Assembly (NCBI RefSeq): GCF_014701235.1
Contig: NZ_AP022873.1
Span: 2,108,001 to 2,172,000, forward strand
Reading direction: 5' to 3'
Length of the DNA stretch: 64,000 nt
Source of the DNA: Dissulfurispira thermophila
GTDB taxonomy: Bacteria > Nitrospirota > Thermodesulfovibrionia > Thermodesulfovibrionales > Dissulfurispiraceae
Shown here: piece after piece, positions 34,972 through 61,439 of the stretch
Layout of the letters: each line of letters opens with the position of its first letter
Position numbering within the stretch: the stretch's first letter is position 1
Notes under the pieces: generated by a model
Database searches by the model: none
Seen by the model: the letters and a program-made list of their open reading frames with translations, nothing else
What the model was told of the DNA's origin: nothing
Position numbers and translations under genes: made by a program

Positions 34972-34977
34972 TTTCGA

Positions 34978-36222
34978 TTACCTCCCCTTTCCTGCTGAAA
35001 TTGCCTTCAATGCCGCACTTGTAGAATCCTGAGCTGATCTGGCAACATCCATAGGGTTTTTTGTGCAGCCAGCAGAGTAAATCCCTGTAACAGGCAATGC
35101 AAAACCATTTTCATTATATTTGACACCAGCAATCTTTTTGGATGCACCTGATGGCTCCATTCCTGTTGCTAAAACAACCATATCAAACTTCATCTTCACC
35201 TTATTCCCTGTAAGCATGTCTTCTGCTGTAACAACAACATCATCAGACCCTTCATCCTGTATAATATCTGCAACCTTACCTTTTATAAATGTTACATTCG
35301 CATCTTCTTTGACCTTCCAGTAAAACTTCTCATACTTGCCGGGTGTTCTAATGTCTATGTAAAAGATCGTTGCCTTTGATTCAGGATTTTGCTCTCTGAT
35401 ATATGTTGTTTGTTTCAGCGAAGCAAGACAACATATATATGAACAGAATGGAAGATGATTTTCGTCTCTGCTTCCAGCACATTGTACAAATGCAATATTT
35501 TGTACAGGCTTTCCATCAGAAGGTCTTAATATCTTTCCTGATGTTGGACCTGTAGGCGAGGCAAGCCTTTCCATCATCATATTGGTGATGACATTCTTTA
35601 CCTTGCCAAAACCAAGCAAACTTAGTTTATTTGCATCATAAGGATTCCATCCTGTAGCTACAACTATAGAGCCTACAGTAAAGGACATTGTCTCAGGCTT
35701 CATATCTAAGTCTATTGCATTATACTTACATGCCTCCTTGCAAGCCTTCCCGCAGTCAGCCTTACAATAATTAGAATCAATAACATACTTCTGAGGAAAT
35801 GCCTGATTAAAGGGAAGGTATGCTGCCCTTGTCTTATCCATGCCAAAGTTGTATTCATTAGGCCTTTCCGCTGGACAAGCCTGAGCACATGCATCACAGG
35901 CAACACAATTGTCATTTACATATCTTGGATTAACTTTTACTGTTACATTATAATTTCCAGGACCACCACTTATACTGTCAACCTCTGCCATTGTGTAAAA
36001 AGAAATATTTGCATTGGTCTTGATCCTCCTGAAATTAATCTCAAGGCCGCAGATTGGCGGACAGAGTTTGGGAAAATATTTGTTAAGCTGAGCAACTCTA
36101 CCACCCAAATATGGATTTTTTTCTATCACCACAACTTCAGCGCCTGTCTCTGCTGCATCAACAGCAGTTGTTAGCCCGCTAAAGCCGCCGCCTATAACCA
36201 GTACCCGATTAATATCTGGCAT
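34978..36222 (-). CDS. qmoA: QmoA, HdrA-like flavoprotein
   Basis: 414 residues. FAD fold GGGFSGLTTAVDAAE is at residues 11-25. Iron-sulfur cysteines are in NCVACDACAQACP (~104-116) and in the unusual spacing CKADCGKACKEACKYNAI (~153-170). Homologous to the first part of HdrA and of QmoB. It passes electrons to APS reductase. AAGGAGG precedes the ATG. A 138-base gap with a perfect hairpin separates it from aprA. Confidence 0.94.
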   Translation of the reverse strand: MPDINRVLVIGGGFSGLTTAVDAAETGAEVVVIEKNPYLGGRVAQLNKYFPKLCPPICGLEINFRRIKTNANISFYTMAEVDSISGGPGNYNVTVKVNPRYVNDNCVACDACAQACPAERPNEYNFGMDKTRAAYLPFNQAFPQKYVIDSNYCKADCGKACKEACKYNAIDLDMKPETMSFTVGSIVVATGWNPYDANKLSLLGFGKVKNVITNMMMERLASPTGPTSGKILRPSDGKPVQNIAFVQCAGSRDENHLPFCSYICCLASLKQTTYIREQNPESKATIFYIDIRTPGKYEKFYWKVKEDANVTFIKGKVADIIQDEGSDDVVVTAEDMLTGNKVKMKFDMVVLATGMEPSGASKKIAGVKYNENGFALPVTGIYSAGCTKNPMDVARSAQDSTSAALKAISAGKGR

Positions 36223-36244
36223 ATCTTTCCTCCTTAACCATTAA

Positions 36245-36350
36245 TGAGTGAATCAATAAATGGGTATATCAGAAAACATGTTTACCTTCTTATTACCCAT
36301 CAACTCATCCACTCATAAATTTCTGGGAGGGGTAACTACCCCTCCCAGAA
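36245..36350 (-). terminator. Hairpin and inverted repeats between aprA and qmoA
   Basis: TTCTGGGAGGGGTA-AC-TACCCCTCCCAGAA (36321-36350) is a perfect 14-bp stem 10 bases past the aprA stop, but only three T follow on the minus strand. Next come imperfect arms ATGAGTG...AATGGGTA and TACCCATC...CCACTCAT (36245-36316). More likely a partial terminator or a 3'-end stabiliser, setting AprBA above Qmo, than a full stop. Confidence 0.55.
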
Positions 36351-36359
36351 TTGCTCTAA

Positions 36360-38339
36360 TTAGTCTGGAATAATCTGAACATATGGAACCTTTTTTAGCT
36401 CCCAAGTGTTCTTTTCTGCATCGTATCTTGAGTTGACAAAGCACTTCCAGTTTTTATCATCAATTGCAAGGAAATCTCCCCTATAGTAGTAACCAGGATA
36501 CCTTGATTCTTCCCTGAAGAGGATATGTCTTGCATGTGCCTCAACAGAAAGGATCCTGTGGAAGTTCTCCCATGCCCTCATAAGCTCATGGAGATTAGCT
36601 GCTGCACTCCTTGCTGCATCCTCTTTGAGTAATTCGAGCTGTTTTAAGCCTTCTTCGAGCATTGTCTTTGAGGTCATGTACCATGTGGAGATGCCGCCAA
36701 AGTACTCATCAGCAATCTTCTGCAGTCTTGCCTGAAGCATATGGGGTCTGATGTAATGTGGATTTGTATAAGGATCTGTAGAGAATGTCTTATACTTCTC
36801 ATAGATCTCGTACGGAGCATAAAGCTCTGCTGCTATAGCCTCTGGGGTTTCTTTGATAGTTGGCTTATAATCAGCATGATCAAGTATAAAGGCGATTGCT
36901 GCCTTTGCTGCTATTCTACCTTCTGCATGAGAGCCAGAGGAGAATTTATGTCCTGATGCACCAACAATATCACCCATCATAAAGAGACCGGGAACTGTTG
37001 ACATCCTATTGTATCCCCATGAATAGTGTTCCGGGGTTCCTGGTATGTCGCCAGGTCCGCTGCACCAGAATCCTGCACAACCTGCGTGTGAACCAAGCAG
37101 ATAAGGCTCTGTTGGCATGATTTCTGAAGGCTCCTTATCAGGCTCGACATTTTTGCATGCCCATAGACCTGCTTGACCAATACACATGTCAAGGAAGTCT
37201 TCCCATGCCTCTGCTTCGAGATGTTTAATCCTCTTGGCATCCATTGTCTTTGCAAGTTCCTGCATTGCTGTATGTGTATTCATCAGGATTGGACCTTTTC
37301 CTTCTTTCATGTCCAACATCATCATATGGTTCCTGATAGCTGTGCCAAGTTTTTCTGCATATGGGCTATAAAGCTTCTTTGTCTCCTCAAGCCTTGTAGC
37401 ACAATAGTCCTCGCCAAGTGCATTTGTTGCCTTTGCTTTGAAAAAGAGGAACCATGCACCAACAGGTCCATATCCATCCTTGAATCTTGCAGGGACAAAC
37501 CTGTTTTCCATCATTGTCAACTCTGCGCCTGCCTGCATGCCAAGGGCATACCCTGACCCTGCATTCCATACAGGATACCATGCCCTTCCCTGTCCTTCTC
37601 TTGTTGACCTTGGCCTGAATACATTAACTGCACCACCAGCACCAAGCAGTATTGCCTTTGCCTTAAATATATATATCTTGTTTTCTCTGACGCTAAATCC
37701 TGCTGCTGCTGCAACCCTCTTAGGGTCATTTGCGTCATGATAGAGTTTTACTATAAAGACCCTTTCAAAGTGATTTTGTGCAACGCCTGTTGCCTGTCTA
37801 TTAATTTCCAGCGCCTTCTTTGCAGCCTCTGCAACTATGACCTTGTAAGACTCACCATTAATCATTATCTGCCATTTACCTGACCTTACAGGGACGCCAC
37901 CATCTTTAAGCATTGCCTTCCCTGCATCCCTTGCCTGAAATCCATCGAGTGAGAATCCATCATCACCCTTCTTCCATATCGGAAGTCCCCACTCCTCAAA
38001 GAGATGAACAGAATTGTCAACATGCCTACCAAGGTCATAAACAAGGTCTTCCCTGATTATGCCCATAAGGTCGCCTCTGACATATCTCACATAGTCTTCA
38101 ACTTTATTTTCGCCAATATAAGTATTGATTGCTGAAAGCCCCATTGCAACAGCACCACTTCTGTCTGTTGCTGCCTTATCAACCATCGTAACCTTAAGTC
38201 CTTTTGGATTTGCCCAGCGAACTGCTTCAAAGGCTGCGCCACATGCTGACATGCCTCCACCGATAATGAGAAGGTCTGTCTCAATCTCCACCACAGGGGG
38301 CTTTTCGCAGTACGAAAATGTACAGGTTTCTTTTTCCAT
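36360..38339 (-). CDS. aprA: Adenylylsulfate (APS) reductase, alpha subunit
   Basis: The FAD subunit that reduces APS to sulfite and AMP in the cytoplasm. 659 residues, as in known sulfate reducers. FAD motif IIGGGMSACGAAFEA at ~25-39; RSGAVAMGLSAIN near 62-74; KFSSGSHAEGRIAAKAAIAF near 475. Conserved Trp/Arg positions for APS binding are in the expected regions. AAGGAGG precedes the ATG; it is 16 bases downstream of aprB. Confidence 0.97.
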   Translation of the reverse strand: MEKETCTFSYCEKPPVVEIETDLLIIGGGMSACGAAFEAVRWANPKGLKVTMVDKAATDRSGAVAMGLSAINTYIGENKVEDYVRYVRGDLMGIIREDLVYDLGRHVDNSVHLFEEWGLPIWKKGDDGFSLDGFQARDAGKAMLKDGGVPVRSGKWQIMINGESYKVIVAEAAKKALEINRQATGVAQNHFERVFIVKLYHDANDPKRVAAAAGFSVRENKIYIFKAKAILLGAGGAVNVFRPRSTREGQGRAWYPVWNAGSGYALGMQAGAELTMMENRFVPARFKDGYGPVGAWFLFFKAKATNALGEDYCATRLEETKKLYSPYAEKLGTAIRNHMMMLDMKEGKGPILMNTHTAMQELAKTMDAKRIKHLEAEAWEDFLDMCIGQAGLWACKNVEPDKEPSEIMPTEPYLLGSHAGCAGFWCSGPGDIPGTPEHYSWGYNRMSTVPGLFMMGDIVGASGHKFSSGSHAEGRIAAKAAIAFILDHADYKPTIKETPEAIAAELYAPYEIYEKYKTFSTDPYTNPHYIRPHMLQARLQKIADEYFGGISTWYMTSKTMLEEGLKQLELLKEDAARSAAANLHELMRAWENFHRILSVEAHARHILFREESRYPGYYYRGDFLAIDDKNWKCFVNSRYDAEKNTWELKKVPYVQIIPD

Positions 38340-38355
38340 TGTTATCCCTCCTTAA

Positions 38356-38775
38356 TTATTGTTTTCTGGCTTCATAGTTGAAGTAGCCAGGCTGTTTAAT
38401 TTTTGAATAATCTGGCTCAGGCAATCCCTTGTATGGATCGATAGAGCCCTCTGGGGTTGTCCTAATAGGAAATTTGAATCTCTTGAGGGATCCATTCCTA
38501 AACTTAATTGTCCACATAATAGAATCTGTTCCTCTCATTGGGATAACATTACCTCCCAGAGGATTGAAGTCCTGATAACCCCTGACTTCGATTGCCTGCT
38601 GAGGGCATATCTTCACACAGTTGTAGCACTCCCAGCACTGATCTGGCTCCTGATTATATGCCTTCATGATGTCCCTGTTAAGGGTCATGAGGTCATTCGG
38701 ACAGATATACTGACATGCAGTCTTGTCCTGAGCCTTGCATCCGTCACACTTCTCAGTAATTACATAGCTTGGCAT
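38356..38775 (-). CDS. aprB: APS reductase, beta subunit
   Basis: 139 residues carrying two [4Fe-4S] clusters: CDGCKAQDKTACQYICP (residues ~10-26) and CWECYNCVKICPQQA (~47-61). It takes electrons from Qmo and hands them to the FAD in AprA. The C-terminal extension wraps AprA in known structures and is present here. GGAGG precedes the ATG. Confidence 0.96.
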   Translation of the reverse strand: MPSYVITEKCDGCKAQDKTACQYICPNDLMTLNRDIMKAYNQEPDQCWECYNCVKICPQQAIEVRGYQDFNPLGGNVIPMRGTDSIMWTIKFRNGSLKRFKFPIRTTPEGSIDPYKGLPEPDYSKIKQPGYFNYEARKQ

Positions 38776-38799
38776 AACATAACCTCCTTTGGTTTTTAA

Positions 38800-38975
38800 T
38801 TAAGCATCGATTTATGATGCCCTCTGTCTGTTATCAACACACAGTAAACAGCAAAATTTCAAAAGCCAAAATTATAGGCTTCACACCCCCTTTCGTTAAA
38901 AAAGCTATAGGTTATAGGTCATAGGCTATAGGTCTTCTTTTATAATTATTGCCTACAGCACATTGCCTACTACCT
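38800..38975. repeat. Intergenic repeats between sat and aprB
   Basis: GCTATAGGTTATAGGTCATA followed by GGCTATAGGTC (38902-38934), plus TTGCCTACAGCACATTGCCTAC (38948-38969, in part) and CTCTGTCTGTTATC (38822-38835). These are simple direct repeats of the kind that litter this genome; a promoter for aprB could be hidden here, but none is clear. Confidence 0.45.
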
Positions 38976-38984
38976 TTTGTTTAT

Positions 38985-40199
38985 TTATGCGCCCTCTGCA
39001 AACTTATGGAGTTTGACCTCCACCTTTTCTGTCAATCCTTCGTAATACTCTCTTAATATCTTAAGAACCTCTGGCCTGCTGAAGTGGTCTGGAACATCTT
39101 CTCCTTCTGAAAGCATCTTTCTTAATTTTGTTCCACTGAGGATTAACCTGTCTTCTTTTCCGTGTGGACATGTTCTCATTGAAGCCATGCCATCACACTT
39201 ATGGCAATAGAAAGTCCAGTCAATCTTAAGAGGCTTTGTCTCAAGTGCACCAGCAGGTATTTCATCAAATATCTTCTGAGCATCAAATGGACCGTAATAT
39301 TCACCAACACCTGCATGATCTCTTCCTACAATAAGATGGCTACAGCCATAGTTCTGCCTGAAGAGTGCGTGTAAAAGCGCCTCTCTTGGTCCTGCATATC
39401 TCATATCAAGAGGATAGCCACCAACTGTTATAGTATCTTTAACATAATAATGCTCAATAAGAACATCTATTGCCTTCTGTCTTACATCAGCAGGAATGTC
39501 GCCGGGTTTTAACTTTCCTAAAAGCATGTGGATAAATACTCCATCACATGTCTCGATGGCAATTTTTGTGAGATATTCGTGGGAACGGTGCATAGGGTTT
39601 CTTGTCTGGAATGCTGCAACTGTGCTCCAACCTTTTTCTTCAAAAATCTTTCTTGTTTCTGCAGGCCTAAGATAGATTCCAGGATATTCCTTTGGAAATG
39701 CTCCCTCGCTGAGGACCTTTACAGGACCGGCAAGATTTACATCTGCCTGTTTCATTACCATTACAACACCCGGATGCTCCATATCAGTGGTCCTGAATAC
39801 CTGTTTGCATTCATATTCTTTATCTATCTTGTATTTTTCCGTAACCTTCATTGTTGCCATTATCTCGCCTGTTTCTTCTGAGACAAGGGCAATCTCTTCG
39901 TTCTTTTTTATACTATCTGCCTGTCCTTCTGTTGTAGACACTGTTATAGGAATTGGCCAGAAAGTACCGTCTGCCATTTTGTACTCAGCACATACACCTT
40001 TCCAGTCATCATGTCCCATGAATCCTGTAAGAGGAGAAAACCCTCCTATGCCCATCATTATAAGGTCTCCTGCCTCACGGGATGTAATTCTCACCTGTGT
40101 GAGGGTCTTCGCTTTTTTTCTCTCTTCTTCAAGCTCAGTGCCTGTCAATAAGAGAGGAATTAATTTTTTCTGTTTTCCATGCGGATTTACTAAAGCCAT
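38985..40199 (-). CDS. sat: Sulfate adenylyltransferase (ATP sulfurylase)
   Basis: Activates sulfate with ATP to APS and PPi, the first step of dissimilatory sulfate reduction. 404 residues of the dissimilatory homo-oligomeric type. The ATP motif [11 protein letters not shown] is at ~199-209 and GRDHAGVG near 291; a zinc-ribbon-like [16 protein letters not shown] is near 335-350. AGGAGG precedes the ATG. It lies 49 bases downstream of adk and 209 bases upstream of aprB. Confidence 0.97.
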
Positions 40200-47583: not shown

Positions 47584-50043
47584 TTATGCTGCCTCTATTT
47601 TTACTGCCACAAGTGGTAATCCACCGTTCAGAGAAGGATATGTAAGTGCATTAACTCTTGCATGAGCAAAATGCAAAGGGGCAAAAACAGTGCCTTCAGG
47701 CACCTCATCAGAAAGCATTGCCTTCAGATAAACCTCTCCTCTCCTTGATCTGACCTTTACAAACATATCGTCTTGGATATTGTATCTTTTAGCATCTTTT
47801 GTGTTTATCTGCAGATATGCATCAGATACTACAGAATCGAGGTTTTTTGAAAGTACAGATAGCGCACCTGAGTGCTGAAGAATATTTGCAGTAACAAGAA
47901 ACATCGGATATTCATCACTTACACTCTCCATAACCTCATGAGAAACAGGGTTGAATGATGGACAAACCTCTTTTGTCCCACCTTTGACAACCATATCTGC
48001 AATTGTTGCCCTTATATCCATTAAATCCTTCAATCCAATATCTTTATTCATCACCCTTGCAAGATTCCTAAATATCTTCCAATCAGGTATAGATTGTCCT
48101 GTCTCAGATATAAGTTTTGGCACTCTCTGAACATCACCTGTAGCAGCCATAAATGTCCCTTCTTTTTCTGACCAACTACATGCAGGGAGTACAACATCTG
48201 CAAGCCTTGCAGTCTCAGTAAGAAAAATATCCTGCACTATCAATAATTCAAGCCCATTTAGTGTCCTCTCGACCTTTGACACATCCTGAAAGGTTACAAG
48301 CGGATTCTCTCCCATTATATAAAGAGCCTTCACAGTGTCTGGCTCGTAAAATATCTCATAGGCATTCTTCCCATCACCAAGAGGTCTAATCCCTACCATC
48401 CACATGCCTAATGTATTTGAAAACTCAGCAGGTATCTGTACAGCATCAGGACCATCGCCCATAAGAAGAGCAAGGTTTAAAGCTGCAAGAAGCGTATTTA
48501 TACTCTTTGTGTTTTCAGATGCATTAGATGTTAATGCAATAAGCCTCTTTTTAGAAGAAACAAAAGACCGTGCAAGAGTTATAACCTCATCTTCAGATAC
48601 ACCTGTAATCTTGGAAACTGCTGATGGTGTATATTCCTTCAGACTGTTTGCAAATACATCAAAATCCTTTATTGTAAAAGCCCTATCCTTTTCATATAAA
48701 CCCTCATCGATTATAACTTTAGCAATACCACTTAAAAGCACTGTGCCAGACCCAGGCTGTATCCTTAACCACTGGGTGCTGTTCCTTGCGAGCTTTGTCT
48801 CTTTCGTATCTGCAACTATTAGTGCTGCACCATCATTTTTTGCTTTAATAAAATTCAATCCCCATACAGGAAGGGTAGATGTTATGTCAGATTCAACAAC
48901 AAATATGAGATCTGCTTTCAAAGGGGCATCCCACTTTATAATAGGTAAAATGTCCGTGCCAAATGCCTTCTCCATAGCCTTCTGCGCCTTTGCATAACCA
49001 AATCGAGCTGCAGAATCTATATTATCTGTGCCGATAATATCCCTCATGAATTTCTGGAGCATATAGTTATCTTCCATTGAGCATCTCTGGGAGCCAATAG
49101 CACCGATAGCCGAGGCTCCGTATTTTTCTTTGATGGATTCAAGTTTTTCTGCTATATATCTAAGGGCATCTTCCCATGATACAGGAGACAGTTTTCCATC
49201 CTTTTTAATCATTGGTGTTGTGAGCCTGTTTTCAGAATATATGTAATCAAATCCAAACCTACCTTTACTACAAAGATTCCCTTCGTTTATCCCCACATCT
49301 TCCTTCCCCCTTGCCCTTATTATCCTTCCTTCTCTGATACTCACATTTGTTGTGCAACCACAACCGCAATAGGGACATATAGTAGCATACTCATCCATAT
49401 ACCAAACCCTCGATTTAAATCTGTATGGCTTTGCACCAAGCGCACCAACAGGGCATGCATCTATACACTGACCGCAAAACTCACAATTCAATGTTTCTTC
49501 AAATGCCGGACTCACCTTTGTCTTAAATCCCCTTCCTATGAGGTTTATAGCACCCACACCCTGATGCTCAGCACAGACCCTCACACACTTTCCACAGAGA
49601 ATGCATCTATTTGGATTTCTTTCTACAATAGGCGCATCTATTCTCTCAGGGTCATGCTTTCTTTCAGCAAAAAACCTTGACTGCGATGGTCCATATTTAA
49701 AAGCAAGGTCCTGAAGATCACACTCTCCAGCCTTGTCACATATAGGGCAGTCAAGTGGGTGATGAACGAGAAGGAGTTCAAGGACGAGTTTCCTTGCCTT
49801 TGCAAGCTTTGGTGTCTCTGTTTGTACAACCATACCCTCGGCAACAGGGGTTGAACATGCAGCAAAAAGCCTCGGCTGTCCTTCAACTTCCACAACACAA
49901 AGCCTGCAACCACCATAAGGCTTTAGTCTTTTGTCATAGCACATATTAGGTATATAAATACCATTTTTCTGTGCCGCCTGAAGGATAGTTGTTCCTGGTT
50001 CAACTTTTATGTTTTTCCCATTTATTGTTAGTTCCACTGGCAT
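47584..50043 (-). CDS. NuoG/formate dehydrogenase-like iron-sulfur molybdopterin-fold subunit
   Basis: 819 residues: [2Fe-2S] ferredoxin domain (CYDKRLKPYGGCRLC, ~34-48), the His-Cys3 segment (HHPLDCPICDKAGEC, ~95-109), two [4Fe-4S] clusters (CILCGKCVRVC, CEFCGQCIDACPVGA, ~147-205), an FdhA-type [4Fe-4S] (CPYCGCGC ~225), then the full molybdopterin oxidoreductase fold and its C-terminal dinucleotide-binding domain. Where formate dehydrogenases have Sec/Cys-His, this reads SAARFGYAKA, so catalysis on formate looks lost. It is probably an electron-wiring subunit like NuoG. Follows NuoF after 14 bases. Confidence 0.82.
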   Translation of the reverse strand: MPVELTINGKNIKVEPGTTILQAAQKNGIYIPNMCYDKRLKPYGGCRLCVVEVEGQPRLFAACSTPVAEGMVVQTETPKLAKARKLVLELLLVHHPLDCPICDKAGECDLQDLAFKYGPSQSRFFAERKHDPERIDAPIVERNPNRCILCGKCVRVCAEHQGVGAINLIGRGFKTKVSPAFEETLNCEFCGQCIDACPVGALGAKPYRFKSRVWYMDEYATICPYCGCGCTTNVSIREGRIIRARGKEDVGINEGNLCSKGRFGFDYIYSENRLTTPMIKKDGKLSPVSWEDALRYIAEKLESIKEKYGASAIGAIGSQRCSMEDNYMLQKFMRDIIGTDNIDSAARFGYAKAQKAMEKAFGTDILPIIKWDAPLKADLIFVVESDITSTLPVWGLNFIKAKNDGAALIVADTKETKLARNSTQWLRIQPGSGTVLLSGIAKVIIDEGLYEKDRAFTIKDFDVFANSLKEYTPSAVSKITGVSEDEVITLARSFVSSKKRLIALTSNASENTKSINTLLAALNLALLMGDGPDAVQIPAEFSNTLGMWMVGIRPLGDGKNAYEIFYEPDTVKALYIMGENPLVTFQDVSKVERTLNGLELLIVQDIFLTETARLADVVLPACSWSEKEGTFMAATGDVQRVPKLISETGQSIPDWKIFRNLARVMNKDIGLKDLMDIRATIADMVVKGGTKEVCPSFNPVSHEVMESVSDEYPMFLVTANILQHSGALSVLSKNLDSVVSDAYLQINTKDAKRYNIQDDMFVKVRSRRGEVYLKAMLSDEVPEGTVFAPLHFAHARVNALTYPSLNGGLPLVAVKIEAA

Positions 50044-50057
50044 ATTTTATTCCTCCT

Positions 50058-51944
50058 TTATTCTTCTTTTCCGGCAAGCACAGCCGTATGCATCTCTCTC
50101 AAGATTTCCTGTGCAGGCATATCTGGTGCAAGTATCTCTCTGTAACTCCTTGGCCCTATCTTTACTGAATCAAATTTGCACGCCTCATAGCATGATCGAC
50201 ATTGTATGCAGAGTTGTTGATTTATGCGATGTGGAACCTTTTTTTCTCCTGATATTGCATTTTGTGGACAGACTCTTTTGCATGCACCACATGCCTTGCA
50301 TTTTTCCTCATCTATGTAAAATGTACATAGTTCTTTGCACACACCTGTCTTACACCATTTTTCTTGTATATGGGATTCATATTCATCCCTGAAATATTTT
50401 ATTGTTGTAAGCACTGGATTAGGCGCTGTCTGACCGAGACCGCAAAGGGATGTTGCAATTATGTCTCTGGACATATCTTCAAGAAGTTCTATGTCTCCAT
50501 CCCTCCCTCTTCCTTCTGTTATATTTGTCAACATATCAAGCATAACAGTCGTTCCGATTCTACAGGGAGGACATTTACCACATGACTCCTCTGCTGTAAA
50601 TTCAAGAAAAAACTTTGCAACACTCACCATGCAGTTAAGGTCATTCATAACAACCATACCGCCTGACCCAACAATTGCTCCTGTCTTGACAATATCTTCA
50701 TATGTTACAGGTGTATCGAGTAGATGTTCAGGGATACAACCACCTGACGGACCACCAAGTTGAACAGCCTTGAACTTCCTTCCCTTTGGAATACCTCCTC
50801 CAATATCGTATATTATCTTCCTGAGAGGAATTCCCATAGGGACCTCTATAAGCCCAATATTATTTATTGCACCGCTCAGTGCAAAGACCTTTGTGCCTGT
50901 AGATTTTTCTGTGCCGAGACTTCTATACCACTCGCCGCCATTCAATATTATCTGAGGAATATTTGCATATGTCTCAACATTGTTAAGCACTGTTGGTTTT
51001 GCCCATAATCCTTTTTGTGCTGGGAATGGTGGTCTTGGTATAGGCATTCCTCTTTTTCCCTCTATTGACCTCATAAGTGCGGTTTCTTCACCGCACACAA
51101 ATGCACCCGCACCCTGATATATTTCTATATCAAGATTAAAGCCTGTGCCTAATATATCATTCCCAAGCAGACCATATTCCTTTGCCTGTTTTATAGCGAG
51201 CTGCAGTCTATGTACTGCAAGTGGATATTCTGCCCTCACATATATATAACCTTTGTTTGCGCCTATTGCCTTTGCCCCTATAATCATGCCCTCAAGGACA
51301 ACATGAGGATCTGCCTCCATAATGCTCCTGTCCATAAATGCACCGGGGTCCCCTTCGTCACCATTGCACAGGATATATTTCTGGTCACCCTTTACTTTAG
51401 AGCAAAACTCCCATTTTAGTCCTGTAGGAAATCCAGCTCCACCCCTACCTCTGAGTCCTGATTTTTTAACCTCATCTATTATCTGCTCAGGGGTCATTTC
51501 TGTTAATGCCTTTGCAGCAGCCTGATACCCATCTCTCGCTATGTACTCTTCTATCTTTTCAGGGTCTATAAGGCCTTTATTCCTCAATGCCCTGAGGACC
51601 TGAAGACTGAAAAATGGTATGTCTCTCATTAAAGGTATTGTCTGCTTCTTAACAGGCTCCTTATACATGAGCCTCTCAACAGGCCTTCCCTTTATGAAGT
51701 GCTCTTCAACAATTATAGGGATATCTTTTACAGTCACTTTTTCATAAAATATATCTTCAGGATAGACAGTCATAACAGGTCCCTGAGCACAAAAACCATT
51801 ACATCCTGTAAGAACAACATTTATTTCGTTTTGAAGCCCTTTGTTTTTGAGTTCTTCATCAAGTGCATTTTTTACCTTTAAACTGCCTCCTGCTATACAG
51901 CCTGTGCCTCCGCACAACATAACACTCGCACGATACCTTTCCAT
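50058..51944 (-). CDS. NuoF/HndC/HydB-like flavoprotein (NAD(P)H-binding)
   Basis: 628 residues: N-terminal thioredoxin-like [2Fe-2S] (CGGTGCIAGG...CNGFCAQGP), the NuoF core with FMN and NADH sites (GRGGAGFPTGLKW ~170-182, GEETALMRSIEG), a [4Fe-4S] (SCGKCPPCRIGT), and two C-terminal ferredoxin clusters (CKACGACKRVCPQNA, CIQCRSCYEACKFD). This domain order is that of the beta subunit of electron-bifurcating [FeFe] hydrogenases and of HndC. It most likely exchanges electrons between NAD(P)H and ferredoxin. No hydrogenase large subunit is in the window. Confidence 0.9.
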   Translation of the reverse strand: MERYRASVMLCGGTGCIAGGSLKVKNALDEELKNKGLQNEINVVLTGCNGFCAQGPVMTVYPEDIFYEKVTVKDIPIIVEEHFIKGRPVERLMYKEPVKKQTIPLMRDIPFFSLQVLRALRNKGLIDPEKIEEYIARDGYQAAAKALTEMTPEQIIDEVKKSGLRGRGGAGFPTGLKWEFCSKVKGDQKYILCNGDEGDPGAFMDRSIMEADPHVVLEGMIIGAKAIGANKGYIYVRAEYPLAVHRLQLAIKQAKEYGLLGNDILGTGFNLDIEIYQGAGAFVCGEETALMRSIEGKRGMPIPRPPFPAQKGLWAKPTVLNNVETYANIPQIILNGGEWYRSLGTEKSTGTKVFALSGAINNIGLIEVPMGIPLRKIIYDIGGGIPKGRKFKAVQLGGPSGGCIPEHLLDTPVTYEDIVKTGAIVGSGGMVVMNDLNCMVSVAKFFLEFTAEESCGKCPPCRIGTTVMLDMLTNITEGRGRDGDIELLEDMSRDIIATSLCGLGQTAPNPVLTTIKYFRDEYESHIQEKWCKTGVCKELCTFYIDEEKCKACGACKRVCPQNAISGEKKVPHRINQQLCIQCRSCYEACKFDSVKIGPRSYREILAPDMPAQEILREMHTAVLAGKEE

Positions 51945-52351: not shown

Positions 52352-53212
52352 TTATTCATATTCCTTTAAAAGCTCCAGAGCTTTTACGGGATTGACAGAT
52401 CCGTGTGTGTTTTTATCAATAACAACAACAGGTGCAAGCCCGCAGGCACCAAGACATCTTACTGTTTCGAGAGAAAACTTTTTATCTGCTGTTATCCCAC
52501 CAATATCAACATTGAGACCTTCACTGAACTTTTTTACTATCTCTTCAGCACCCTTAACATAACATGCTGTTCCGAGGCATACCCTGATATTGTGTTTGCC
52601 CTTTGGCTTCATTGTAAAAAATGAATAGAAAGAAACAACTCCGTGAACCTCGCTTACAGGTATTCTTAAGCCCTTTGATATATGCCTCTGGACAACAGGC
52701 GGCAGGTAACCAACAAGTTCTTGTGCTTCCTGTAAAACAGGTATAAGGCTCCCAGGCTTATTCTTATATCTATCTATAATTTCATCAAGCCTTGCAGCCA
52801 CATCTTCTGTATAATCCTCAACCTGAGGTTCGGGTGTAACACCCCTTTTCTTTAACTCAATTGCATTATTCGTTACCTCGATGAGATGGGTTGGAGAAAA
52901 TGGTTTCGGAAGATAATCTATTATCCTCAGACTCAGTGCCTCTTTAATGCTTTCCTGAGACGGATAACCTGTTATTACCACTATGTTTATATCTGGATTC
53001 TTTGCCCTCACCAGTCTCATAAACTCTATGCCATCCATTTCTGGCATCTTGATATCAGTGATTATGAGATCATATAAATTCCTATCAAGTAAGGACAGTG
53101 CATCTTTTGCAGATGTTGCAGTGTCAACCCCGTATCCCTCGGGCGACAGAATCCTCTCGCAACTTTTCAGGACAATCTGTTCGTCATCAACCACAAGGAT
53201 ATTTCCTTTCAT
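52352..53212 (-). CDS. Response-regulator receiver fused to NuoE/HndA-type [2Fe-2S] subunit
   Basis: 286 residues in two domains. Residues 1-120 form a complete CheY-like receiver: acidic pair in VVDDEQ, phospho-acceptor Asp in ITDIKMPEMDG (~54), Thr in VVITGYPS and Lys in YLPKPFSP. Residues ~135-286 are a full NuoE/HndA domain with thioredoxin-like [2Fe-2S] cysteines (CLGTACYVKG, CLGACGLAP). The frame is continuous, so the fusion is real on this sequence. It suggests that phosphorylation gates or assembles the diaphorase. Usual NuoE proteins (~160 residues) lack a receiver. It is 12 bases downstream of another receiver fusion. Confidence 0.92.
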   Translation of the reverse strand: MKGNILVVDDEQIVLKSCERILSPEGYGVDTATSAKDALSLLDRNLYDLIITDIKMPEMDGIEFMRLVRAKNPDINIVVITGYPSQESIKEALSLRIIDYLPKPFSPTHLIEVTNNAIELKKRGVTPEPQVEDYTEDVAARLDEIIDRYKNKPGSLIPVLQEAQELVGYLPPVVQRHISKGLRIPVSEVHGVVSFYSFFTMKPKGKHNIRVCLGTACYVKGAEEIVKKFSEGLNVDIGGITADKKFSLETVRCLGACGLAPVVVIDKNTHGSVNPVKALELLKEYE

Positions 53213-53224: not shown

Positions 53225-53989
53225 TTATGTAGTTATTGGATTAATCTTAATAAGCCATAAAAACCATCCTTCACACAGGTGATTCTTCAATAGAGAACAT
53301 ATAGCATCATTAGCATGACCGTTGATCGCCTGTACCGCCCCTGTCATTGGAGCCTTTATATCATAAATATGTCCTTCACCTGAAAGCAGCCTTGCAAAAG
53401 GTTCCCCTGCCACAACTGCCTTAATATCTGTCATCATGTCCACATATAGTAACTGCCCGCTCGCAAGAAAGTGTCTTACATCTACTCCTATTTCCCACCA
53501 CCCGTCTTTTATTGGTCGTGCCCATGTGCCATCTTTATAATAAATTGTAAGACTATCCATCTCTGATGCAGGCACAACATAATTCCTGAATTGATCAATA
53601 TAAGCCTTTCGAAGTATCCACCCCCTTTTATCAAAAACCTTTCTTGCAACATTCATTATAAAATTAGGGGTAAAGGGCTTCTCAAGATATTCGAAGGCTC
53701 CAAGCCTTATAGATTCCTTTGCATCCTCCAGTGATGGATAACCTGTAACAACAACAACATCTGTCTTTGGTTGTACAGTCTTTGTTTCTTGCACAACCTT
53801 AAGACCGTACACATCAGGAAGCCTGATGTCTGTGATAACAAGATCGAATTCCTCTTTTGAAACCTTCCTAATTGCACTTTCTCCGTCTTCTACAGTAAAT
53901 ACAGTAAAGCCTTCTGCACCCAGTATCCTCTTACAGCTAAGGCATATAACAGGGTCATCGTCAACAACAAGTATCCTCTGTTTCTCCAT
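53225..53989 (-). CDS. Response-regulator receiver fused to a GcvH-like (lipoyl-fold) domain
   Basis: 254 residues. Receiver at 1-120 with VVDDDP, Asp in ITDIRLPDVYG (~53), VVVTGYPS and YLEKPFTP. The C-terminal part (~150-254) follows the H-protein of glycine cleavage: IGVDVRHFLASGQLLYVDM, GEPFARLLSG, YDIKAPMTGAVQAIN, GWFLWLIKI. The lipoyl-lysine position (ESVKA in GcvH) is Gly here (SGEGH), so it should not carry lipoate. First gene after a sigma54-type promoter; strong SD (GGAAGGGGGG). Role unknown, likely regulatory for the downstream complex. Confidence 0.85.
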   Translation of the reverse strand: MEKQRILVVDDDPVICLSCKRILGAEGFTVFTVEDGESAIRKVSKEEFDLVITDIRLPDVYGLKVVQETKTVQPKTDVVVVTGYPSLEDAKESIRLGAFEYLEKPFTPNFIMNVARKVFDKRGWILRKAYIDQFRNYVVPASEMDSLTIYYKDGTWARPIKDGWWEIGVDVRHFLASGQLLYVDMMTDIKAVVAGEPFARLLSGEGHIYDIKAPMTGAVQAINGHANDAICSLLKNHLCEGWFLWLIKINPITT

Positions 53990-53999: not shown

Positions 54000-54385
54000 T
54001 TCCTAAAGTTGTAATTAGATACCGTGCAATATCAATGCCAGAAAATAAAAATCAAAATCTGTCATATTTTACACCTAAAGGCATAAAAAAGTGTATATTT
54101 TTTTAATACATATAGGAGCAGTGTATTTTAACTACAAAATAGCCTAAAAGACTTAAAAACAAGCCATTAAGGGCATATAAAATAGAGATGTATACTTTTT
54201 TCAGACAGTATTATAATAAATAGCGATCGTAACTGTACTCCAAATGCCCTTTGGGCTATATCGCCGAAGACGGAAGGGGTGACAGCAGCTAATGTAATAA
54301 AAATAATTCCTTGCATTAAGATTCCTTGTAGTAAGTCAATCCAGCGATATGGATATGCCTTCGAAGTGAATAACAAAGTTTTAGA
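54000..54385. other. Intergenic region with sigma54-type promoter and putative activator sites
   Basis: AT-rich. It holds the promoter at 54025-54040 and, 50-100 bases upstream of it, the dyads TGTAT-N9-ATACA (54092-54110) and TGTA-N7-TACA (54122-54136). The 69-codon minus-strand frame at 54167-54376 has no SD and is not called. Confidence 0.45.
54025..54040 (-). promoter_or_regulatory. Sigma54 (-24/-12) promoter of the receiver-NuoEFG operon
   Basis: Minus strand TGGCAT (54040-54035), five bases, TTGCA (54029-54025): this fits TGGCAC-N5-TTGCW with one mismatch and correct spacing. The predicted start is near 54015, about 25 bases before the first ATG. An NtrC-type activator is encoded at 56100-57500. 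Confidence 0.65.
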
Positions 54386-56099: not shown

Positions 56100-57500
56100 C
56101 TAATCAGACTTTCCTTTTGAGATATTGTATTTCTTTAAAAGCGCATGGAAATTTGGCCTCTGCATGCCTACCTCTGCAGCAGCCCTTGTAATATTCCAGT
56201 CGTTTCGCCTGAGTGCAGCAATGAGAAAGCCCTTTTCTATCTCTTCTATGGATTTTGTTCTGATATTCTTTTTCTTTAGTTTTAATTCATCCAGCGTCAT
56301 AGGGATTTCTATCTCTTCCTCATAGCCTATAGGTATCATTATATGCTCGGGTCTGAGCATTCTGCCTTCGCACACTATTACTGCCCTATGAATCACATTT
56401 TCAAGCTCCCTTACATTGCCGGGCCAGTCATTGGCAATAAGCTGACGCATGGCCTCTGCAGAAATATGTGGGACATCCCTCCCAACTTCTTTGCTATATT
56501 TATGGAGGAAATAGTATGCAAGGGCAGGAATATCTTCCTTTCTATTTCTTAAAGGAGGGACATTGATAGGAAATACATTCAGCCTATAAAAAAAATCCTC
56601 CCTGAATTTTCCCTGTTTAACCATTTCCGAAAGATCTCTGTTGGTTGCTGCTATAAATCTTATGTCAATCTTCACTATCTTTTTACTTCCAACAGGTCTA
56701 AACTCCTTTTCTTGTAATACCCTTAAAAGCTTCATCTGCATAGATAGAGGGAGATTGCTTATTTCATCAAGGAATACTGTTCCTCCATTAGCTGTTTCTA
56801 AAACACCTTTTTCTGTTGTAACAGCACTTGTAAATGAGCCTTTTATATGGCCAAACAACTCTGATTCCATAAGATTTTCGGGTATAGTGCCACAGTCAAC
56901 CACTATAAATGGCTGTTCCTTCCTTGCGCTATTATAATGTATAGCCCTTGCAACAAGTTCTTTTCCAGTGCCACTCTCACCTGTTATCAGCACAGTGCTA
57001 CCTGTAGATGAAACAGTGGCTATTAACTTGAATACCTTCTGCATCTCCCTTGATGTTCCAATAATATTGTCTAAACTATAAAGGGCATTGATTTCCTGTC
57101 TAAGCCTTATATTCTCGATTTTAAGTCTCTTTTTTTCAAGGCATCGTTCAACAGAATTCAGAAGTACCTCGGGCGTGAAAGGCTTTTCTATAAAATCATA
57201 TGCGCCATATTTAAGGGCATCCACTGCTGTTTTTACTGTCCCATATCCTGTGATTATTATTACCTCTGTTTCTGGCCATTCCTCTTTAATTTTTTTCAAA
57301 AGGTCTATCCCTGTTGTATCAGGCATAACAAGGTCTGCAAGCACAAGGTCGAATGCCTCATTCTGAAGCTTTTTTACTGCTTCACTTCCATTCCTTGCGG
57401 TCTGAAGATTATACCCATAAGGCGAAAGTATCCTTACACAACTCTTTCTCACAATATCTTCATCATCAACAATAAGTATGCCCGGTGTAATCAATGTCAT
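56100..57500 (-). CDS. NtrC-family sigma54-dependent response regulator
   Basis: 466 residues: receiver (1-120, Asp in VLADLVMPDTTG), AAA+ domain (Walker A GESGTGKELVARAIH ~170, Walker B GGTVFLDEIS ~235), and a C-terminal Fis-type helix-turn-helix (NITRAAAEVGMQRPNFHALL). The sigma54-contact loop reads GSFTSA, not the consensus GAFTGA: the Thr and Phe are kept, two small residues differ. It is 2 bases downstream of the single receiver gene. The sigma54 promoter at 54025-54040 is a likely target. Confidence 0.93.
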   Translation of the reverse strand: MTLITPGILIVDDEDIVRKSCVRILSPYGYNLQTARNGSEAVKKLQNEAFDLVLADLVMPDTTGIDLLKKIKEEWPETEVIIITGYGTVKTAVDALKYGAYDFIEKPFTPEVLLNSVERCLEKKRLKIENIRLRQEINALYSLDNIIGTSREMQKVFKLIATVSSTGSTVLITGESGTGKELVARAIHYNSARKEQPFIVVDCGTIPENLMESELFGHIKGSFTSAVTTEKGVLETANGGTVFLDEISNLPLSMQMKLLRVLQEKEFRPVGSKKIVKIDIRFIAATNRDLSEMVKQGKFREDFFYRLNVFPINVPPLRNRKEDIPALAYYFLHKYSKEVGRDVPHISAEAMRQLIANDWPGNVRELENVIHRAVIVCEGRMLRPEHIMIPIGYEEEIEIPMTLDELKLKKKNIRTKSIEEIEKGFLIAALRRNDWNITRAAAEVGMQRPNFHALLKKYNISKGKSD

Positions 57501-57502: not shown

Positions 57503-57874
57503 CTACAACTCTTGCTCAAGCACCTCTTTTACTCTTTCAATTAATGTATCAGGCGTAAAAGGTTTTTCGAGATAATGGGCAGCCCCTGATGATATTGAAT
57601 CAACTATATGCTCGATGGTATCATAGCCTGTCATTATCATTACCTTCTGATCAGGGTGTTGCCTTTTGATATTTACCAATACTTCTATACCGTCTATGCC
57701 TGGCATCTTTAGGTCTACAAGCACAAGGTCATATTGTGAGTTTTTAAAAAATTCAAGCCCTTCTTTGCCTGATGCAGCAATATCAACTACATATCCTTCG
57801 GGCTCGAGTGTCCTCTTGCAACTGATTCGCACAATATCTTCGTCATCTATCACAAGTATTCTTCCCTTGTCCAT
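57503..57874 (-). CDS. Single-domain response regulator (CheY-like)
   Basis: 123 residues, receiver only. Asp in LVDLKMPGIDG (~53), VIDDED, MTGYDT, LEKPFTP. No output domain, so it is a phosphate shuttle or a partner that acts by binding. It is closely similar to the receivers of the genes at 52352, 53225 and 56100 (shared IVRxSCxRxLxPEGYxVD start), which look like a local duplication family. Confidence 0.92.
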   Translation of the reverse strand: MDKGRILVIDDEDIVRISCKRTLEPEGYVVDIAASGKEGLEFFKNSQYDLVLVDLKMPGIDGIEVLVNIKRQHPDQKVMIMTGYDTIEHIVDSISSGAAHYLEKPFTPDTLIERVKEVLEQEL

Positions 57875-57888: not shown

Positions 57889-58434
57889 CTAATTTTCCCC
57901 TTTCAATGCACTATTTATATCCTCTCTTATCAAATTTAAAACATCAGGCAAATTAATAGGAACATCACCTAATTCTCTTTTAAGCTCCTCTGTTTCAAGT
58001 TTATAATAAAAATCATTCTTCTTAAAGGAAAATAAAAAATCTATCTCTGGATGGCCACCTATTAGCACTGCCATTGTAGCACCTATATCACCCAATGGCT
58101 TCATATCTATGTGGCTGTGCTGAAATTCTGCTGTAATAACAGTTCCTTTGCCTTGCTCTGATTCTACAGAAAAATTACCATTGCATTCATTAGTAGCCTG
58201 TGCAAGAAGAGGTATGCCAAGACCAAATTTTTTCCTTCTAACTGCCTTTGTCGAAAAAAATGGGTCATTAACCATCTTTATCGTATTTTCATCCATCCCC
58301 TTTCCATCATCAATTATCTTAAGTATAAATCTGTCATTAGCCTCATTAATGATAACCCGAATTTCCACCCTTTTAGCACCAGCATCTATCGAATTCTCTG
58401 CGATGTCCAGTATGTGAAGTGAAATATCTTCCAT
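57889..58434 (-). CDS. HATPase-domain protein (histidine kinase-like ATPase)
   Basis: About 181 residues from the ATG at 58434, which overlaps the PHP stop by one base (TAATG). N box in LDIAENSIDAGAKRV (~9-23), G1 box DDGKGMDE, GLGIPLLAQA (G2). It has no phospho-acceptor His or sensor domain. Homologues sit beside DRTGG and PHP genes in [FeFe]-hydrogenase operons of clostridia (from memory). Its partner may be the receivers downstream. Confidence 0.86.
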   Translation of the reverse strand: MEDISLHILDIAENSIDAGAKRVEIRVIINEANDRFILKIIDDGKGMDENTIKMVNDPFFSTKAVRRKKFGLGIPLLAQATNECNGNFSVESEQGKGTVITAEFQHSHIDMKPLGDIGATMAVLIGGHPEIDFLFSFKKNDFYYKLETEELKRELGDVPINLPDVLNLIREDINSALKGEN

Positions 58435-59183
58435 TAATCCATATCCTCGGTATTCCACTCTATTTTTCGCATTCCCTTAAATGCCATTTTTATTTCATCA
58501 AATGTTAGTTCATCAAGAAAAAATGATACTGTCCTTCTACCTAAGTCAGCAAGATGATGGGCATCAGATGATGTTATCCATGGAATTGTTTTATATCCTC
58601 CAAACACTGATTCAGCCCTCTGTCTTTTTGTATTATATGAGATTTCGAGGGCATCAAATGCAATATCACCAGGAATAAATCCAAATTGAGAGACAACACT
58701 GAAAATCTCCTTATCTATATGACTTGCTATAGCAATACCTCCAATAGAATGAATAGTATCAACAATCTCTTTAAGAGAAAGGATTGTAGCACTAAAGAGA
58801 ATCCTTTTATTAAACCTTAAAACTTCATCATTTTCATTAACCACAACCTGATAGCCAATCACCCTTTCATCATTTATACCATTCGGGAGGTGCCTGTAAA
58901 CAATCTCCTGCATTCCCATAACTTTATCTACCGAGTCGAATATAGCAAGCACATGGGCCTCTTCTTGCGATGTAATTTCCATTGAAGGCAAAACCATTAT
59001 CCCTTTTTTCATAGCTATCTTAACAGCAATTTCTGCATTCTCTGCTGAGTTGTGGTCTGATATAGCTATTACATCAATCCCTTTCTTGACTGCAGTGTCT
59101 ATTATACGGAGAGGTGTCATATCTAATTCAGCGCATGGAGATAGACAGGTGTGAATATGCAGATCTGCAATGAATCGCTTCAT
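58434..59183 (-). CDS. PHP-domain phosphoesterase
   Basis: 249 residues. Metal ligands in ADLHIHTCLSPC (~5-16), ISDHNSAE (~40), SMEITSQEEAHV (~67) and SSDAHH (~215). PHP proteins are metal-dependent phosphoesterases; this branch is of unknown substrate and occurs with redox-enzyme operons. It could remove a phosphate or nucleotide signal used by the neighbouring ATPases. Confidence 0.88.
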   Translation of the reverse strand: MKRFIADLHIHTCLSPCAELDMTPLRIIDTAVKKGIDVIAISDHNSAENAEIAVKIAMKKGIMVLPSMEITSQEEAHVLAIFDSVDKVMGMQEIVYRHLPNGINDERVIGYQVVVNENDEVLRFNKRILFSATILSLKEIVDTIHSIGGIAIASHIDKEIFSVVSQFGFIPGDIAFDALEISYNTKRQRAESVFGGYKTIPWITSSDAHHLADLGRRTVSFFLDELTFDEIKMAFKGMRKIEWNTEDMD

Positions 59184-59187
59184 TTAC

Positions 59188-59526
59188 TCATTCACTTCTT
59201 AAGATATTATAAAGCAATCCTGCTATCTCAAATGTTGTCTTTGAAGTGGTTAAAATAGTTATATTTTCCGATTCAGCCTTTTTCACCGTATCAGTCTCAG
59301 GAAGTCTGCCATTTGTTATAACTATGCAAGAAAGACCTTTTATTACTGCAACAGCCACTATGTTTGGATGTGTCTGGAGGGTTATCCATAATTCACCATC
59401 TTTACTGTGAGCCATTACATCCGAAAGAAGATCACTTATGTAGCACCCTGTTACATACTTATGCATATCACCGCTCACCCTTATATCTAATCCTATTTTT
59501 TCAATAATATCACTGACCTTGAGCAT
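59188..59526 (-). CDS. DRTGG-like ligand-binding domain protein (first copy)
   Basis: 112 residues of alpha/beta fold: CYISDLLSDVMAHSKDGELW, THPNIVAVAVIKGLSCIVIT, STKLS-like TTSKTTFEIAGLLY. It resembles the DRTGG domain (related to CBS-pair linked and phosphotransacetylase N-domains) that binds a small ligand. Tightly packed: 1 base from the ATPase gene upstream and 4 from PHP. Confidence 0.75.
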   Translation of the reverse strand: MLKVSDIIEKIGLDIRVSGDMHKYVTGCYISDLLSDVMAHSKDGELWITLQTHPNIVAVAVIKGLSCIVITNGRLPETDTVKKAESENITILTTSKTTFEIAGLLYNILRSE

Positions 59527-59527
59527 A

Positions 59528-59953
59528 TCAATCCTTTCTCATATATATAACTATTTCGAGGGTTGTCCCCTCACCCACAACAGAATCTATCTTGAATCTA
59601 TCTGCATTTTTCTTTATATTAGGCAGTCCCATGCCCGCGCCCCATCCCATCTCCCTTACCCAATCAGGAGCTGTTGAATATCCTTCCTGCATTGCCAGTT
59701 CAATATCCTCTATACCTGGTCCCATATCTGTTAATATTATCCTTATTTCTCCATTGTTAACAACATAGTGCATTGTTCCTGCCACTGCATGTATTATGAT
59801 ATTCATCTCTGCCTCAAATGCAGCAATTGATGCTCGTCTAATAATATCTTGTGACACTCCCAGCTTTGACAGGGTGCTCTTTAATTCGCTCGAGGCAGCA
59901 CCTGCATTCGTAAAATCTCCTCCCATAAGTTGAAAACAACCCTCTACATTCAT
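59528..59953 (-). CDS. RsbW/SpoIIAB-like serine-kinase-type ATPase
   Basis: About 141 residues from the ATG at 59953 (GGAGG before it; TAATG overlap with the upstream stop). HATPase motifs: AFEAEMNIIIHAVAG (N box), ILTDMGPGIEDIELAM (G1), GMGLPNIKKNADRF (G2). Anti-sigma-factor kinases of this kind phosphorylate Ser/Thr of antagonists; no STAS protein is nearby, so the target is open. It sits between the two DRTGG-like genes. Confidence 0.83.
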   Translation of the reverse strand: MNVEGCFQLMGGDFTNAGAASSELKSTLSKLGVSQDIIRRASIAAFEAEMNIIIHAVAGTMHYVVNNGEIRIILTDMGPGIEDIELAMQEGYSTAPDWVREMGWGAGMGLPNIKKNADRFKIDSVVGEGTTLEIVIYMRKD

Positions 59954-60303
59954 TACTCCTCCAGACAACTCCTCAACCCTCCGACATAAAGCATCCCACA
60001 TACTGTAAATGCAGGCAGATGCGTTACCATCAATGCAATGTTTTTTTCTTTTGCAAGCTCTATCATATCCTTCTCCATCTTCTTTCCAAGCACCATAAGA
60101 ACAGCAGCAATATCTGCTATCTCTGCTGTCCTAATTACCTGGGTCTGATTCAAGGCAGTCACAAGCAAAGCACCTTTCGCTGCAAATCTGAGCACATCAC
60201 TCATAAGATCTGAACTGCAAACTGATACTATGTCTATAGAATCAGCCTTGCCTTTAACAATTATTTCTCCATCGATCAGTCCTGCTATGTCTTTGAGTTT
60301 CAT
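59953..60303 (-). CDS. DRTGG-like ligand-binding domain protein (second copy)
   Basis: About 116 residues from the ATG at 60303 (AGGA upstream; a TTG at 60309 is possible). Same fold as 59188: CSSDLMSDVLRFAAKGALLV, TQVIRTAEIADIAAVLMVLG, HLPAFTVCGMLYVGGL. It follows the histidine kinase after 2 bases and overlaps the ATPase gene by one base. The two copies differ enough to suggest distinct ligands or a heterodimer. Confidence 0.75.
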   Translation of the reverse strand: MKLKDIAGLIDGEIIVKGKADSIDIVSVCSSDLMSDVLRFAAKGALLVTALNQTQVIRTAEIADIAAVLMVLGKKMEKDMIELAKEKNIALMVTHLPAFTVCGMLYVGGLRSCLEE

Positions 60304-60305
60304 AT

Positions 60306-61439
60306 TCAATTCCTATCTGTTTTGACTACAGGCAGACGAATAAAAAAGCTTGCTCCACGGCCCTGCTCACTTTTCACAAAAATCTGTCCATCGTGTTTTT
60401 TGATAATGCCATAGCTCACAGCAAGCCCTAATCCTGTACCTTTCCCAGCAGGCTTTGTTGTAAAGAAAGGTTCAAATATCCTGCCCTTAATGTCTTCGGG
60501 AATACCCGGACCTGTGTCAGTAAATTCAATCTCAACAAATCTGCTATCTCCATCTGTTATCATTCTCGATGCAATAGTTATCTTGCCTTTTTCTTCCATT
60601 GCATCTGCTGCATTTATAAGAAGATTGAGAAATACCTGCTGAATCTGATTGGGATCTACACTTACAGCAGGAATAGTTTTATCAAGTTGCACATCAAAGA
60701 CAATATTGTAAAATTTTGCCTGATTCCTTACCATTGACAATATATTTTCTATCAATGTATTTATGTCAATATCTGCCTTTTCAGATGCAGTCTTTCTCGA
60801 AAAACCTAAAAGCCCTCGTACAATCTTAGAACACCTCTCTGCCTGGTCTATGATGACCTTCAAATCTTCTGCATCCTGCGTATTTTCCGGGGGTATGCGT
60901 TTCATCATTAAGTGTGCAAATGTAACTATACCTGTTAAAGGGCTATTCAATTCGTGAGCAACACCTGCAGCCATTCTGCCGAGGGATGCAAGCTTCTCAG
61001 CATTTATCAGTTGTTCCTGCGCCTTTACTATCTCTGCTGTCTTTTTCTGCACCTCTTCTTCAAGGCTCTTTGTCCAGTTCTCCATCTTGTCTCTGTACTG
61101 TCTGAGTTCCTCCACCATTAAATTAAAGGAGTTAGCCAGCATTCCTATCTCGTCTTTTGTCTTAAGATTAATCCTGTAATCCATATCTCCCTGAGATAGC
61201 TTGTTCATTCCATCAACCAAAAATGATAATGGCTTTGTGACAAGATTATAAAGGATTATGCATAAAAGGAAGGATATCGTAATAACAAAAAAGCCACCAT
61301 AAAACAACACGACCCCGAGTTTAATGTCAGGGTTTTGCTTGATAAATACATAAGCAAAAACAAGACCAACAATAAGCATCATTGCGCCTATTGCCAATAT
61401 AAGTTTGCCTGTAAGGGAATTCAGGGATTTTTTTTGCAT
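60306..61439 (-). CDS. Membrane sensor histidine kinase (HAMP type)
   Basis: 377 residues: two membrane helices (~12-33 and ~42-64) with almost no periplasmic loop, HAMP (~65-118), coiled coil, phospho-acceptor HELNSPLTGI (~156), then HATPase with N box NLLINAADAME, G1 DTGPGIPED, G2 GKGTGLGLAVSYGII. The short loop suggests sensing inside the membrane or through partners. First gene of the operon; the receivers at 57503, 56100, 53225 and 52352 are candidate partners. Confidence 0.92.
   Translation of the reverse strand: MQKKSLNSLTGKLILAIGAMMLIVGLVFAYVFIKQNPDIKLGVVLFYGGFFVITISFLLCIILYNLVTKPLSFLVDGMNKLSQGDMDYRINLKTKDEIGMLANSFNLMVEELRQYRDKMENWTKSLEEEVQKKTAEIVKAQEQLINAEKLASLGRMAAGVAHELNSPLTGIVTFAHLMMKRIPPENTQDAEDLKVIIDQAERCSKIVRGLLGFSRKTASEKADIDINTLIENILSMVRNQAKFYNIVFDVQLDKTIPAVSVDPNQIQQVFLNLLINAADAMEEKGKITIASRMITDGDSRFVEIEFTDTGPGIPEDIKGRIFEPFFTTKPAGKGTGLGLAVSYGIIKKHDGQIFVKSEQGRGASFFIRLPVVKTDRN

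Follow-up and report, generated by a model that had tools for sequence, protein, structure and literature searches.

In the stretch of Dissulfurispira thermophila DNA analyzed here (64,000 nt, referred to as the window), a functional-looking response regulator receiver domain is fused to BfuC, the NuoE/HydC-type [2Fe-2S] subunit of an enzyme whose gene set is of the Bfu type. Judging from sequence comparisons, this fusion, termed RR-BfuC, is real, extends across a class of sulfur-cycling bacteria, and has essentially a single origin. Its most likely role, to which we assign a probability of roughly 0.45, would be that of a phosphorylation switch acting on the Bfu enzyme through the receiver on BfuC.

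Domain architecture of RR-BfuC

An earlier, sequence-only reading of the region had described a full receiver, with all phosphorylation residues, in one frame with a full NuoE domain, and both the Pfam assignments and the individual residues agree with this description; its coordinates proved correct, with the ORF located on the minus strand (Table 1). The start codon of RR-BfuC is an ATG at 53212, preceded by a good Shine-Dalgarno sequence (AAGGAGG), the stop lies at 52352, and the plus strand of the same region is full of stop codons. The phosphorylation set of the receiver is present in its entirety, comprising the acidic pair D9 and D10, the phosphoacceptor D53 (codon 53054-53056, minus strand), T81 at the Thr/Ser position, and K103, as are the cluster ligands C212, C217, C253, and C257.

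The structure predicted by AlphaFold2 for RR-BfuC alone (mean pLDDT 87) consists of a receiver fold followed by a NuoE/HydC-type fold. In a Foldseek comparison, the second half matched HydC of HydABCSL and HydABC (7t2r_C, 7q4v_C, and 8a6t_C), but NuoE and FdsG were also among its matches. As indicated by a pTM of 0.51 and the lower pLDDT of the linker region, the orientation of the receiver relative to the NuoE domain is not fixed in this model.

Table 1. Features of the RR-BfuC operon and its surroundings, with positions given for the window.
Feature	Position	Strand	Basis
BfuA (NuoG/FdhA-like) with five cluster sites and no FDH catalytic Cys/Sec	47584..50043	-	Pfam, alignment
BfuB (NuoF/HydB-type), N-terminal [2Fe-2S] and C-terminal 2x[4Fe-4S] domains	50058..51944	-	Pfam, bit scores, ligands
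Small thioredoxin-like ferredoxin (HndB-like), ligands H34/C38/C70/C74	51953..52336	-	next gene in 53/76 loci
RR-BfuC (receiver-NuoE fusion), 286 aa	52352..53212	-	ORF, Pfam, genome search, conservation
NuoE/HydC [2Fe-2S] domain of RR-BfuC, residues 143-285	52358..52786	-	Pfam 2Fe-2S_thioredx (E 2.8e-49); Foldseek to 7t2r_C
Receiver domain of RR-BfuC, residues 5-113	52874..53200	-	Pfam Response_reg (E 1.4e-29); conservation
Receiver-GcvH-like fusion, opening the operon	53225..53989	-	Pfam, neighbor survey, alignment
Sigma-54 (-24/-12) promoter-like site TGGCATTGATATTGCA	54025..54040	-	51 nt 5' of the operon
NtrC-type sigma-54 activator with receiver	56100..57500	-	domains
CheY-like single receiver	57503..57874	-	Pfam
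HATPase (histidine-kinase-like ATPase domain)	57889..58458	-	Pfam, neighbor survey
PHP-domain protein	58434..59183	-	Pfam, neighbor survey
DRTGG-domain protein 1	59188..59526	-	domains
Anti-sigma-factor-like ATPase	59528..60001	-	domains
DRTGG-domain protein 2	59953..60309	-	domains
Histidine kinase (HAMP-HisKA-HATPase), candidate phosphodonor	60306..61439	-	domains

Conservation of the fusion in Nitrospirota

Two concerns had accompanied the sequence-only reading, namely that a frameshift in the assembly might join two separate genes and that the fusion might be absent in all relatives. Neither holds. A search of 296 sampled genomes of the phylum Nitrospirota revealed the same full-length, one-frame fusion in at least 75 of them, at 43-93% identity and with conserved linker length, and the host genome is a single contig of 2,370,875 bp. 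The union of two genes by an assembly or gene-calling artifact was therefore rejected, its probability being negligible.

From the relatives, 76 fusion loci were fetched, resulting in an alignment of 77 sequences. Asp53 is kept in 74 of these and the four cluster cysteines in all 77, while the complete D9/D10/D53/[ST]81/K103 set is found in 73. Pairwise identity among the fusions averages 56% in the receiver and 64% in NuoE and falls to 23% in the linker, and dN/dS relative to near relatives is about 0.005-0.05 in the receiver and NuoE halves alike, where dS was computable. Three relatives (L041, L042, and L043) have lost Asp53 but retain the fusion, which points to a role of the receiver without phosphorylation, at least there. 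In addition, one genome (G207) encodes a second receiver-NuoE copy (L213, 6404-7219, plus strand) that has lost the C-terminal [2Fe-2S] half and carries Glu at the Asp position; this copy is probably a decayed paralog.

Identity of the enzyme

The gene following the fusion encodes a small ferredoxin or NuoF/BfuB in 74 of the 76 loci, and the partner genes of RR-BfuC constitute a BfuABC-type (HydABC-like) set, suggesting a soluble NADH/ferredoxin oxidoreductase of the bifurcating or confurcating kind, with bifurcation assigned by homology. The neighboring genes agree with the initial proposal of a diaphorase or bifurcating enzyme in that the NuoE domain adjoins a NuoF-like gene and belongs to an enzyme of bifurcating type. 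BfuB (628 aa) contains the Complex1_51K FMN domain (Pfam) and scores 857 bits against HydB of the bifurcating NiFe-hydrogenase HydABCSL, compared to 397 bits against complex I; its assignable B1-B5 Cys/His residues are invariant in 71 sequences, except for C11/C16 at 85%. In BfuA, the ligands for five clusters are invariant or nearly so in the relatives, and the formate dehydrogenase (FDH) motif ARVCHS reads ARFGYA, with Gly349 in 66/66 and Tyr or Phe350 in 65/66 sequences. Since the partner set is of the Bfu type, the subunit that bears the receiver is BfuC, and it is the movement of BfuC that has been proposed to gate bifurcation.

The small ferredoxin displays a conserved His-x3-Cys...Cys-x3-Cys pattern, in which His is found in most copies from Nitrospirota and those related to them and Gly in others, and a 3Cys-1His ligation of its [2Fe-2S] cluster is possible.

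Other enzyme identities were considered and rejected. A formate dehydrogenase was suggested by an FdhD gene in the vicinity and by a high score against an FDH profile, but the catalytic Cys/Sec with its adjacent His is absent in all relatives. The NADH module of complex I does not apply, as the complex I of the host is encoded elsewhere (L057) with a plain 423-aa NuoF, whereas BfuB has Bfu extensions. An [FeFe] hydrogenase of the HydABC/HndABCD type was dismissed because the H-cluster domain is absent from the subunit; no Fe_hyd_lg_C domain was found anywhere in the host genome, which therefore encodes no [FeFe] hydrogenase. Apart from complex I, the genome harbors NuoE-bearing sets at L055, adjoining genes that we take to resemble an acetyl-CoA-pathway cluster, and at L056, an FDH-like set at about 1.18 Mb whose FDH-like subunit is split, being broken at the Sec position. 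We infer that the latter subunit is a selenoprotein, and the FdhD near the Bfu operon may serve this set.

Origin and distribution of the fusion

In a tree of 183 NuoE domains, the 90 fused ones group in one cluster (support 84/97), which includes two unfused rows, one cut off by a contig end (L212) and the other on a very long branch (L182). The receiver halves of RR-BfuC form one clade as well (97) when compared to the receivers found in the receiver-GcvH, NtrC, and CheY proteins that these clusters encode, indicating that the two domains travelled together. These trees argue for essentially one origin of the fusion, inside Nitrospirota. The labels of the relatives, e.g., a Thermodesulfovibrionales MAG, place the clade in Thermodesulfovibrionia, and a fusion event early in this class, with the whole class carrying the fusion, appears to be the best explanation.

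Among the matches listed, no receiver-NuoE fusion was found in 67 sampled loci outside the clade. The nearest NuoE proteins in other Nitrospirota lineages, Desulfobacterota, and Bacillota are unfused, and their operons often encode DRTGG, anti-sigma-like ATPase, DRTGG, PHP, and HATPase proteins beside NuoE, the small ferredoxin, and NuoF. As unfused NuoE thus occurs in comparable operons elsewhere, the receiver was most likely added once to a pre-existing operon type. A fusion labelled Deferribacteres (L124) was rejected as a case from outside the phylum, because it is 84% identical to a Nitrospirota sequence; it most likely stems from a mislabelled MAG. A plasmid search returned NuoE-only matches and no fusion, and no description of the fusion was found in the open-access literature searched. 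An unfused analog is seen in a Desulfobacteraceae locus (L171, 2391-3676, plus strand), where a separate CheY-type receiver gene lies directly upstream of NuoE.

Probable gene-level control of the operon

The sequence-only reading had envisaged control at the level of the enzyme and not of the gene. The second part of this claim is contradicted by the promoter-like site ahead of the operon and the adjoining NtrC-type activator (Table 1), together with RpoN, which is encoded in the host genome. When sites with at most one mismatch within 250 bp upstream were counted, sigma-54-like sites were found in 22 of 76 loci of the relatives, compared to a mean of 0.17 in the control, for which random stretches of the same loci were used. 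With this arrangement, gene-level control of the Bfu operon appears very likely to be present as well, alongside any enzyme-level control.

Within the cluster, four receivers would compete for the kinase at 60306, and the histidine kinase lies inside the fetched flanks in 31 of the 76 loci. The receiver-GcvH gene (53225-53989) is located directly upstream of the fusion in about two thirds of the loci; it usually opens the operon, its product lacks a conserved Lys in the lipoyl region, and none of the 56 sequences deviates in the phosphorylation residues. The cassette encoding the DRTGG, anti-sigma-like ATPase, DRTGG, PHP, and HATPase proteins (57889-60309, minus strand) occurs beside HydABC/Bfu-type genes in Nitrospirota, Desulfobacterota, and Bacillota (L131-L197), and no description of it was found in the open-access literature.

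A proposed phosphorylation switch and competing explanations

According to the reading that we favor, a histidine kinase of the neighboring cassette (best candidate 60306-61439) would phosphorylate Asp53, and the phosphorylated receiver would shift its contacts with BfuB/BfuC, thereby altering the mobility of the BfuC [2Fe-2S] domain. This mobility would constitute the gate between FMN and the ferredoxin branch, as proposed for HydABC-type enzymes. While such a switch could tune or stop the enzyme quickly, the NtrC-type regulator would set the amount of enzyme via the sigma-54 promoter. Phosphorylation by the kinase, the gating effect, and the direction of that effect are what we infer here. 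In the cryo-EM analysis of HydABCSL, the main motion involves the HydC [2Fe-2S] domain and, coupled to it, the C-terminal domain of HydB; movement of HydC was proposed to gate the low-potential electron (PMC8880783), while in T. maritima the HydC cluster was given an important role in bifurcation (PMC9499530). A receiver tied to the gating subunit would thus be well placed to alter the gate upon phosphorylation. The more far-reaching version, in which bifurcation is gated by phosphorylation so that a kinase directly sets flux or branching, fixed in a whole bacterial class, is put forward tentatively.

The kept phosphorylation residues are what a phosphorylation-controlled enzyme subunit would be expected to show, and the completeness and co-conservation of both domains, with a receiver dN/dS well below 0.1, likewise speak for a switch. 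Against it count the loss of Asp53 in three relatives, the unfixed orientation of the model, which thus offers no contact surface, and the NtrC transcriptional control, which would already supply two-component regulation. The three fused relatives that retain the domain without the phosphoacceptor would instead suit a receiver that serves as an interaction module, anchoring the Bfu enzyme to a partner, while phosphorylation would do no more than modulate assembly. This partner could be the receiver-GcvH protein, in keeping with its gene lying directly upstream in about two thirds of the loci, a second protomer, or another redox complex, comparable to the situation in mycobacteria, where complex I carries the receiver protein MSMEG_2064 as an additional subunit bound to it (PMC9274095; PMC11522691). 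However, a receiver that only docks would have no need of every phosphorylation residue, yet 73 of the 77 sequences retain the full set, and we regard this explanation as less likely than the switch.

It is also conceivable that information flows in the reverse direction, with the receiver taking up or losing phosphate at a rate that varies with the redox state or the assembly of the BfuC [2Fe-2S] subunit. In this way, the enzyme would drain phosphate from a shared kinase or return it, and so signal to NtrC and to the sigma-54 promoter in front of its own genes. While the grouping of NtrC, CheY, receiver-GcvH, and receiver-NuoE with one histidine kinase is consistent with this, and the sigma-54 site of the operon makes such a feedback loop anatomically possible, the fetched flanks of many fusion-bearing relatives lack NtrC and the kinase, and we consider a reporter of this kind less likely still.

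Comparison with known systems

The BfuABC/HydABC family (Acetomicrobium mobile HydABCSL, Thermotoga HydABC, and Nfn-Bfu; PMC9304861, PMC8880783, PMC9499530) served as reference for comparison. Like its members, the enzyme has a BfuB with extra N- and C-terminal cluster domains, a four-Cys BfuC, and a BfuA with complex I-type Fe-S domains, and the operon layout matches loci of Bacillota and Desulfobacterota. In contrast to them, it carries a receiver on BfuC, the molybdopterin-fold domain of its BfuA is devoid of the FDH Cys/Sec, and the genome lacks an [FeFe] hydrogenase. The Bfu family is defined by a conserved BfuBC core and comprises 17 clades without an assigned function, and the main text describing it makes no mention of receivers (PMC9304861).

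The closest precedent is Rv3143/MSMEG_2064, an orphan response regulator that is bound to mycobacterial complex I and was proposed to be a modulator (PMC9274095; PMC11522691), since there, too, a CheY-like receiver is physically tied to an NADH dehydrogenase-type enzyme. However, Rv3143/MSMEG_2064 is a separate protein on a membrane complex, where most of its crosslinks are to NuoD, whereas the receiver described here is covalently attached to NuoE/BfuC and encoded in a Bfu-type operon without a membrane subunit. Similarities extend to the NAD-dependent FDH FdsABG of R. capsulatus and C. necator, with its NuoE/NuoF/FdhA-like subunits, and an FdhD gene lies nearby here; yet the FDH catalytic Cys/Sec and the adjacent His are absent in the fusion relatives, and NuoF has Bfu extensions. 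Response regulators of the CheB type have an enzymatic output and combine an N-terminal receiver with a C-terminal non-DNA-binding domain, as does RR-BfuC, but where these have a self-contained enzyme as output, RR-BfuC has a subunit that transfers electrons within a redox enzyme of several subunits.

Electron bifurcation determines how much energy anaerobes have at their disposal, and in the open-access literature searched we found no post-translational switch that acts directly on a bifurcating enzyme. As the subunit proposed to be the gate bears a conserved receiver, the question of a bifurcation switch is open to direct test by point mutation and phosphomimic, and the fusion offers a natural way of asking whether bifurcation is indeed controlled by movement of the BfuC [2Fe-2S] domain. 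Furthermore, the mycobacterial complex I case, in which the receiver is a bound subunit, gains a covalent counterpart from an unrelated phylum. If the phosphorylation switch is true, a sensor kinase could in principle restrain not only the gene but also the activity of the enzyme.

Elsewhere in the window, QmoABC-, AprAB-, and Sat-like genes are found in one stretch (31653-40199, minus strand); taken as QmoABC/AprAB/Sat, they mark the host as a sulfur-cycling anaerobe. Finally, a pair of 125-aa coiled-coil ORFs (6584-6961 and 8200-8577, plus strand), almost identical to each other and containing internal repeats, lie approximately 1.6 kb apart.
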